Shown piece by piece: positions 28,605-30,935 of a stretch of DNA of 64,000 nucleotides (within the stretch, counting starts at the first letter, position 1; each line of letters starts with the position of its first letter). Source of the DNA: Bdellovibrio sp. GT3. Lineage in GTDB: Bacteria > Bdellovibrionota > Bdellovibrionia > Bdellovibrionales > Bdellovibrionaceae. The position numbers and the translations under genes are program-made. The DNA is taken from assembly GCF_037996765.1 (NCBI RefSeq), contig NZ_JBBNAD010000005.1, positions 652,001-716,000 of the forward strand. Reading direction: 5' to 3'. The notes under the pieces were generated by a model, which did no database searches, was not told the origin of the DNA, and saw only the letters and a program-made list of their open reading frames with translations.

Positions 28605-28787
28605 TTAACCGCGACCGCCGTTTGCTTTTGATTGAGACGTCGGTACAACCTTAGGAGCAGCAGCTGCGTATGGCTTAGCTGTTTTATCAAACATCTTAGC
28701 GCTTACTTGTTGATTGCATGCTGATGCAAATGAAACAGAGGCTGTTGCTGCAATAGCGAATGCGATCATTAGTTTTAGAGCTTTCAT
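28605..28787 (-). CDS. 60-aa exported Ala-rich peptide
   Basis: The product has a strong signal peptide (LMIAFAIAATASVSFA) and a mature part of about 37 residues: one Cys at the third position after SFA, AKMFDKTAKPYAAAAPKVVP and a C-terminus GGRG. AAAGGAG precedes the ATG. It has its own sigma-54-like promoter and a hairpin at the predicted 5' end of the message. It is similar in design to the 59-aa peptide downstream and lies 189 bp from the hit-like gene on the same strand. No known family. Confidence 0.75.
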   Translation of the reverse strand: MKALKLMIAFAIAATASVSFASACNQQVSAKMFDKTAKPYAAAAPKVVPTSQSKANGGRG

Positions 28788-28914: not shown

Positions 28915-28949
28915 TAAAAAAGGCCCCTTTTGTAAGGAGCCATTTTTTG
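28915..28949 (-). terminator. terminator after the hit-like gene
   Basis: On the minus strand GGCTCCTT and AAGGGGCC form a stem with one mismatch and a short loop, followed by TTTTTTA. It lies 28 bp past the stop of the hit-like gene and probably ends the Tad/hit transcript. No gene is seen in 28788-28976. Confidence 0.65.
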
Positions 28950-28976: not shown

Positions 28977-29270
28977 CTATCGGTCGTTAATACCTTTATT
29001 CCCGCTAGCTGAGCCGGAGCTGGTAGATTCACCTTTATTCTCATTAGGATTGAAGGCTGTTTTATCCAACAGACGCTCATGTCTTTGATACATCTGACAT
29101 TTAGTACAACCAGGTGCGCTTACACTCGCGGCAGTTGAACTTTTACCGATTTCCATTTCGTCAGCCGGGTCGGAGCCTGGATTCGTAGTCTCTGCATTAG
29201 CTACGATAGAAGTAGCGGAAATCACAAAACTGATCAGAGCAAAAACCACCAGAAACATAAATTTCTTCAT
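28977..29270 (-). CDS. hit: hit-locus small exported protein (Bd0108-like)
   Basis: A 97-aa exported protein: signal peptide (FMFLVVFALISFVISATSIVANA), an acidic linker, a CTKC pair (Cys55, Cys58), and a disordered Ser/Gly/Asn tail ending GINDR. AAGGAG precedes the ATG, 12 bp after the Rhs-like gene. Size, signal peptide, neighbouring Rhs-like gene and the Flp/Tad operon upstream match Bd0108 of B. bacteriovorus, where mutations allow prey-independent growth and where the product has been linked to pilus status. A 10-bp direct repeat lies inside the tail-coding part. The assignment rests on gene order and features, not alignment. Confidence 0.75.
   Translation of the reverse strand: MKKFMFLVVFALISFVISATSIVANAETTNPGSDPADEMEIGKSSTAASVSAPGCTKCQMYQRHERLLDKTAFNPNENKGESTSSGSASGNKGINDR
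28992..29040. repeat. 10-bp direct repeats inside the hit-like gene
   Basis: ACCTTTATTC occurs at 28992-29001 and 29031-29040, 39 bp apart, within the 3' part of the coding sequence. Slippage or recombination between the copies would remove exactly 13 codons (residues 81-93) in frame. The B. bacteriovorus hit gene is known for recurrent deletions of similar size between short direct repeats. Confidence 0.85.
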
Positions 29271-29282
29271 ACCGAGCTCTCC

Positions 29283-30935
29283 TTAGAGATATAGCTCTGC
29301 AGTAGCAGGAGCGATAATGTCGAGCAAGTTATTAAATGTGCTGGCCACTTGCATTGCCACTGAAGGTCCTTCTTTACTATCCACCTTGTTGATCTCACCA
29401 TTTGGTTTGTAGGAAACCTGAATAGTTCCCAATCCTGGGCGAGTCACAATAGATGGTTTTCCGTAACGCTCTTCATACTCGATCTTAACCACTTTCTTGG
29501 CCTGATCGGTGATCGTTGCGATACGACCGCGATTATCATAGGTCATAGCAATCTTCTGACCATCTGAGTTCTGCGCATAGTTCAGATTGCCTTTGCCATC
29601 ATATTTAAACTGAGTGGCTTTAGCTGTGACCTTCTGACCTTTTTGGTTGAAGAACGTCGTGGATACCTGAGTCACCTTTTTGATTTTCGAATCGTATTCG
29701 AAAGCCATGCGAGTTGCTGGCGTAGCCTTAACTTTTACCAAACCATCCGGATAGTATTCATAAGAAATACGCTCAGAGTTTCTGCGGATGCCCGTCGGCT
29801 TGCCGAATAGCTCGTGATAGCTGATATCAGTGACATTGCCATTGATAGTTGTCATCACACGTTGCAGGTAATACTGCCCATCAGCGCGCTGTCTGTGCCA
29901 GAACTCGTACTTGTCATCTGCGACAACTTCTTTGCCACAAACTTTTTTAACTGATGACCAGTAGTGATTCTGTGGATCGTTTTGCGAGAACTCGTACTTA
30001 TAGGATTCCACACACTTGTCGCGATTCGAGAAAGAAGTGACCCAGTCATTCTTCTTGTCATACTTGATCGCGATAGATGTTTTATCCGGCCATGAAGCCT
30101 TGGTTAAGTTGTGAAGGTCGTCATATTCGTAAGTGTAAGTCTTGTTCCACGCATTCTTAACTGAAGCCAAGTCATCCAGATTTGCGAACTTATAATCCAC
30201 ATTCAGACCGTTAGGGCCTGTGATGGACTTAATCTTTTTGTTTTGAAAGTACTTGAACGCCAGACGACGACCGTTATTGTCCTCGATCTTGGTGATTTGA
30301 GTCTTATCGTAATCGAACTTCAAGAAGTTGCCGTTCTTATCATAGATATGAGTCAGAAGACCTTGCGGACTAAAACGCTGTGCTGTTCCGTCTGGAAGAG
30401 TTCTTGTATAAAAAGTTTTATTGAACGTGAAGTTCTCCACTTCGCGACCGTTTGCAAAAAACTTCGTACCTTCCTTAACAGGAACGATAATGCCGTACTT
30501 TCTTGCAAGCTCAGTGCGAGTGTTGTCGTCTTCCAAAAGATCTGTTTTCAGGGAACTCAGATAAGTGTCAGTCACGCCGACTTTCTTTTCGGCTTTCATC
30601 TTAGTCACGATCTGGCTGATTGTTTTTTCAACATCCTGGCGTGAAACTTCACGAGGTGAGTAGGTAATTTCCATACCACCACCGCACTCTTTCACTTTGA
30701 TATTTCCCTCAGCATTTACTTCCATGCTGGTTTCGAAATCCGAGCACCAACCGAATCCAAACATTCCGTTGAAAAGTGAGCGGCTGTTATAGGTTCTAAC
30801 AATTTTAAGATCGTAACCAGTGCCTGGTACGTCCATGTCTATCCACGTATTGGAATAGTTGGCATTCTTCATGTCGACAAGGGCATGCGCCTGAGCCGAG
30901 AAAAGAACGGCCACTGCAATAAGTGCCTTCTTCAT
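29283..30935 (-). CDS. exported Rhs/YD-repeat-like protein (Bd0109-like)
   Basis: A 550-aa protein with a signal peptide (MKKALIAVAVLFSAQAHALV), an N-terminal DUF6531-type start (IVRTYNSRSLFNGMFGFGWCSDFE) as in Rhs proteins, and YD-type repeats through the rest: YDKNGNFLKFDYDK, EDNNGRRLAFKY, YEYDDLHNL, YDNRGRIATITD. Unlike polymorphic toxins it is short and has no variable toxin domain at the end. It could form a beta-cocoon or wall-associated surface. It sits between the Tad operon and the hit-like gene, as Bd0109 does in B. bacteriovorus, where the two proteins are reported to influence pilus behaviour and host-independent growth. Confidence 0.82.
   Translation of the reverse strand: MKKALIAVAVLFSAQAHALVDMKNANYSNTWIDMDVPGTGYDLKIVRTYNSRSLFNGMFGFGWCSDFETSMEVNAEGNIKVKECGGGMEITYSPREVSRQDVEKTISQIVTKMKAEKKVGVTDTYLSSLKTDLLEDDNTRTELARKYGIIVPVKEGTKFFANGREVENFTFNKTFYTRTLPDGTAQRFSPQGLLTHIYDKNGNFLKFDYDKTQITKIEDNNGRRLAFKYFQNKKIKSITGPNGLNVDYKFANLDDLASVKNAWNKTYTYEYDDLHNLTKASWPDKTSIAIKYDKKNDWVTSFSNRDKCVESYKYEFSQNDPQNHYWSSVKKVCGKEVVADDKYEFWHRQRADGQYYLQRVMTTINGNVTDISYHELFGKPTGIRRNSERISYEYYPDGLVKVKATPATRMAFEYDSKIKKVTQVSTTFFNQKGQKVTAKATQFKYDGKGNLNYAQNSDGQKIAMTYDNRGRIATITDQAKKVVKIEYEERYGKPSIVTRPGLGTIQVSYKPNGEINKVDSKEGPSVAMQVASTFNNLLDIIAPATAELYL

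Follow-up and report, generated by a model that had tools for sequence, protein, structure and literature searches.

A 39-bp-spaced direct repeat in the Bd0108 (hit) orthologue of Bdellovibrio sp. GT3: probably an accidental weak spot, not an evolved switch

The hit locus and its direct repeat

The window, meaning the whole stretch of 64,000 nucleotides analysed here, contains an open reading frame (ORF) that lies directly downstream of a Bd0109 (RHS) gene and starts 12 nt past its stop. Together, its profile match and its Bd0109 neighbour (Table 1) mark this ORF as a true Bd0108/hit orthologue, which bears out the original prediction of a hit-like gene. The protein has the family trait of a CxxC followed by a D-x-T motif. 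Bd0108 itself has been found experimentally to be disordered (PMC4267844). The hit protein evolves fast: the closest sampled relatives stand at 89% for Bd0109 versus only 27-29% for the hit protein.

Table 1. Features at the hit locus, in window coordinates.
Feature	Position	Strand	Basis or remark
Bd0109 orthologue (RHS/YD repeats), upstream neighbour	29283..30935	-	
hit/Bd0108 orthologue, 97 codons	28977..29270	-	NCBIfam NF053838 (hit_Bd0108, predatory lifecycle switch protein), 108.1 bits against a curated cut-off of 40; comes after Bd0109, an order found across the genus
C55-x-x-C58 motif	29097..29108	-	Alignment; both Cys invariant in the aligned genus set
D69-K70-T71, the conserved D-x-T motif	29058..29066	-	Alignment; T71 invariant; spared by the 39-bp deletion
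First copy of the direct repeat, read along the gene (GAATAAAGGT, codons 77-80)	29031..29040	-	
Second copy of the direct repeat, read along the gene (GAATAAAGGT, codons 90-93)	28992..29001	-	
Terminator-like hairpin downstream of hit gene	28922..28941	-	Pattern match only
Putative small secreted Cys protein ORF	28605-28787	-	HD100 counterpart 96483-96683, 66 aa (L056, G001)
Second, tandem member of the small family, 59 aa	28178-28357	-	

The gene downstream of Bd0109 was taken from 59 genomes of the family, and the 58 intact genes were compared; HD100 is G001, in which the published HD100 primers lie at the expected place, and Tiberius is G007. Beyond the genus, many of the genes have diverged too far to match NF053838, and "homologue" there refers to whichever gene occupies the hit position; a CxxC is often present in it. 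Across the 40 hit-position proteins that have this motif, the tail that follows it measures 31-47 residues (mean 37.6, SD 3.8).

The repeat is present as predicted: on the forward strand ACCTTTATTC occurs as two exact copies 39 bp apart, and these are its only copies within the window, where 0.13 would be expected and where two copies arise in 1 of 100 shuffles. On the coding strand the word begins at the last base of codon 77 and again at that of codon 90. Deletion of one copy and the spacer in silico removes ESTSSGSASGNKG, confirming the predicted in-frame loss of 13 codons (residues 81-93) with frame and stop retained. The product would end in ...NPNENKGINDR, keeping the hydrophobic N-terminus, the CxxC and D-K-T and dropping 13 residues of the variable tail. 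A search for a deletion-favouring hairpin between the copies returned none better than those of shuffles.

The downstream small ORFs and the published sRNA

In each of the 24 genus genomes the hit gene is followed by a small ORF of 57-69 codons that has a hydrophobic N-terminus, a Cys and an [LM]-x-x-x-T-like motif. In HD100, a "non-coding sRNA" at 96455-96716 was reported to be up-regulated in every bd0108 mutant examined (PMC3818213). The HD100 small ORF falls within this interval, and the study's two RT-PCR primers lie inside the ORF. Near pairs of genomes differ at the small ORF by 15 synonymous and 3 non-synonymous changes (HD100 and Tiberius) and by 15 and 0 (G003 and G010), a low dN/dS that indicates coding constraint. 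Because the ORF sits inside the published RNA in HD100, is conserved in the genus and is under coding constraint in near pairs, the hit-locus "sRNA" of HD100 is very probably an mRNA that encodes a small, conserved secreted protein, provided that the transcript runs on the ORF strand. The gene tag BD_RS00505, mentioned in this interval (PMC5941755), may be the same small ORF. By eye, the reverse primer Bd0108-Rcomp of the published complementation fragment (PMC3818213) corresponds to the first bases of the small ORF in HD100 (L056), so that all but the opening part of this ORF would be missing from the complementation plasmid. Pfam and NCBIfam models gave nothing over cut-off on the small downstream genes; of RNA families, STnc250 alone appeared at the locus (E 0.13; 22 bits, where the gathering score is 42) and was taken as chance.

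Compared as a pair alone, the small-ORF family and the Bd0108 tail align with an hhalign probability of 86% (E 5.5e-6), which no more than suggests a relationship. The weak profile match that the two share covers C..L.D.T plus tail, and the small proteins extend 31-42 residues (mean 37.1) past their last Cys, equal in length to the Bd0108 tail (hit-position genes of the family, L055-L114); Bd0108 and the small proteins may belong to a single paralogous family of secreted peptides. The second small ORF is exactly 174 nt long in the relatives G011 and G016, the size of a "174-bp insertion" that was reported for Bdellovibrio sp. SKB1291214 close to its hit locus and taken there as possible gene transfer (PMC5941755). 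The second family member of HD100 lies elsewhere, at ~407 kb.

Background frequency and conservation of the repeat

An in-frame repeat of at least 10 bp is rare in randomised versions of the hit gene: dinucleotide shuffles give one in 0.7% of cases, and shuffles of synonymous codons in 1.1%. Real coding DNA of this genome exceeds the shuffle prediction. In a background sample of 20 x 20 kb per genome (this genome and HD100) plus the window, amounting to 464 kb for this genome, such repeats at a spacing of at most 100 bp occur in 50 of 1225 coding tiles of 294 nt (4.1%) and in 7 of 86 small ORFs (8%) of this genome. When the spacing is restricted to 20-60 bp, the counts are 32 of 1225 tiles (2.6%) here and 30 of 1069 (2.8%) in HD100, and four ORFs of the window itself carry one. 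Since real genes are richer in repeats than shuffles, the hit-gene repeat, although real, is not exceptional and stands at about the genomic background frequency.

Among relatives the repeat is scarce. In-frame repeats of at least 10 bp occur in 4 of the 58 hit-position genes: that of the window (39 bp), those of HD100 and its close relative G004, which share the 42-bp spacing, and that of G054 (14 bp), where the repeat sits near the N-terminus. Within the genus, the C-terminal repeat is limited to the window, HD100 and G004, with a version containing one mismatch in G020. The hit genes of the nearest sampled relatives of the window's species, G011, G014 and G016, yielded no in-frame repeat of at least 10 bp. 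Tiberius lacks it as well: its hit protein is 96% the same as that of HD100, and the two copies of CAAAGGCTCC in HD100 are replaced by TAAAGGCTCC and CAAGGGCTCC, both word differences being synonymous. The great majority of related genes therefore lack repeats at this place, an outcome that the original prediction had named as counting against it. In a separate observation, the hit orthologue of G002 (L057), also downstream of Bd0109, is split by a frameshift, with its N- and C-terminal halves in different frames and otherwise intact; this could be a natural mutation of the prey-independence type or a sequencing error. Bd0108 of strain W has been described as without its C-terminus, and given that description G002 may be strain W.

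Family-wide, the four genes with a repeat compare with 0.5 expected from shuffles, an excess that the genome overall also displays. By our own arithmetic (~2.7% per gene, ~22 independent lineages), the chance that at least two lineages of the genus carry a repeat is ~12%, a figure that leaves room for a weak tendency of the hit gene toward repeats.

One possibility would be that the two NKG peptides serve some function in the protein and that the DNA repeat follows from them. Lys-Gly shortly after D-x-T does recur in several species (RPKG, IKGS, ENKG), and KG or EG lies close to many C-termini. However, the peptides alone do not force identity of the DNA, as the low yield of synonymous shuffling indicates, and two such peptides are missing from most homologues; this explanation is unlikely.

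Interpretation of the repeat

The 42-bp deletion between 10-bp direct repeats, on which the original prediction drew, is documented in strain 109J, where it accounts for 25 of 54 host-independent isolates (46%) (Wurtzel 2010, PMC3013116); Capeness 2013 (PMC3818213), which cites Cotter & Thomashow 1992 for it, is also a source for this deletion in bd0108. In 109J, host independence also arises through frameshifts (35%) and stops (6%) (PMC3013116), which means that frame-keeping is not needed. A later HD100 screen found bd0108 mutated in 32% of 44 host-independent strains, with frameshifts or an inversion in the fully sequenced bd0108 mutants (PMC11323537). The pilus phenotype differs between whole-gene deletion and 42-bp deletion of bd0108 (PMC3818213), so an in-frame product can have an effect of its own. 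The deletion and its phenotype are known for HD100/109J only.

The window and HD100 resemble each other in several respects. The genes are orthologous and lie next to Bd0109; both contain an exact, in-frame 10-bp direct repeat pair in the C-terminal half, spaced by 39 and 42 bp, respectively; and one repeat arm of each falls at a semi-conserved Lys-Gly shortly past the D-x-T motif. In contrast, the repeat words differ (GAATAAAGGT and CAAAGGCTCC). On alignment with Bd0108 and its relatives, the repeat positions are not homologous: the HD100 copies, at residues 69-72 and 83-86, flank H-D-D-T (75-78), whereas those of the window, at 77-80 and 90-93, both follow D69-T71 and so do not constitute an HD100-type site, with copies at homologous positions flanking D-x-T. 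The HD100 deletion removes RRHDDTVSREIKGS, including the conserved H-D-D-T, and that of the window would keep D-K-T, so that the two take out adjacent, different segments and are not equivalent. These comparisons are positive evidence against a repeat design shared by the window and HD100, and the "same design" envisaged in the original prediction does not hold, the more so as most relatives, including Tiberius, have no repeat. Repeats with an AAAGG core may have arisen twice because of the semi-conserved Lys-Gly after D-x-T.

The original prediction further suggested that the repeat itself may be selected as a contingency switch, kept so that some cells delete 39 bp and become prey-independent, as in HD100. 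The gene is the right one, HD100/109J do use a 10-bp repeat deletion, and both losses are in frame, with a remaining tail that would be shorter than those of natural homologues. Against this, the repeat is no more frequent than the genomic background, is missing from the nearest relatives, and would excise a segment different from that of HD100 in a gene where frame-keeping is not required. Consistent with these objections, the repeat-free hit gene of Tiberius was unchanged in six host-independent isolates (PMC3539863), an observation confounded by the ability of Tiberius to grow without prey anyway.

The mechanism raises a further objection. Deletion between spaced direct repeats loses the intervening segment, and the same mechanism cannot restore it. 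Phase-variable simple sequence repeats at contingency loci offer a likeness, in that a repeat-mediated replication error could, by inference, alter the gene product at elevated frequency. Unlike such loci, the window has two spaced copies in place of a tandem array, with a loss not reversible by the same mechanism, and its repeat has neither an excess over genomic background nor conservation between relatives. Because the deletion is irreversible in this sense, the repeat would be a mutational hotspot at most and not a contingency switch; a selected switch is very improbable. Given the background frequency and the scarcity among relatives, selection on the repeat is not supported.

A distinct question is whether the deletion would matter to the protein. 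The predicted tail is 26 residues after the 39-bp deletion and 28 after the HD100 42-bp deletion, below all 40 natural versions. Falling outside the natural range, the shortened tail may still impair the protein and reduce its function. Against such an effect, the residues lost in the 39-bp deletion are hypervariable and the D-K-T motif stays. It is also conceivable that Bd0108 acts via the length of its variable tail and that species independently gained short repeats whose loss cuts the tail below a threshold of ~30 residues, giving a convergent mutational route to prey-independent growth. Within the genus alone, the constraint on tail length was no tighter than on the N-terminal part, and such a convergent route appears quite unlikely.

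Taken in aggregate, the data make it likely that the repeat is an incidental, lineage-specific feature and a potential slippage hotspot in an ordinary Bd0108 orthologue, not maintained by selection as a switch. The C-terminal tail is fast-changing and of low complexity, with recurring Lys-Gly dipeptides, and a 10-bp repeat could have arisen there incidentally. Judging from general knowledge of direct repeats, the new strand could mis-pair between the copies during replication and 39 bp could be lost, making the tail a potential site of slippage deletion, as in HD100. The deleted product would lack 13 variable-tail residues, with function perhaps reduced through the short tail. Three observations go against a reading by chance: within the genus, a repeat is present in two independent lineages, and in the same half of the hit gene; the family-wide count exceeds that from shuffles; and the tail would fall below the natural range after both deletions. 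On balance, the repeat in the hit gene is probably an accidental weak spot, not an evolved switch.

In Bdellovibrio, no mutational gate between predatory and prey-independent growth is better known than the hit gene, and its 42-bp deletion is often quoted as built in. The repeat that underlies this deletion is no common design of the genus, and even Tiberius lacks it; the deletion spectra of HD100/109J should therefore not be extended to other species. The analysis also indicates a possible tail-length constraint in Bd0108, and suggests that the "small RNA" of the hit locus has probably been misread as non-coding.
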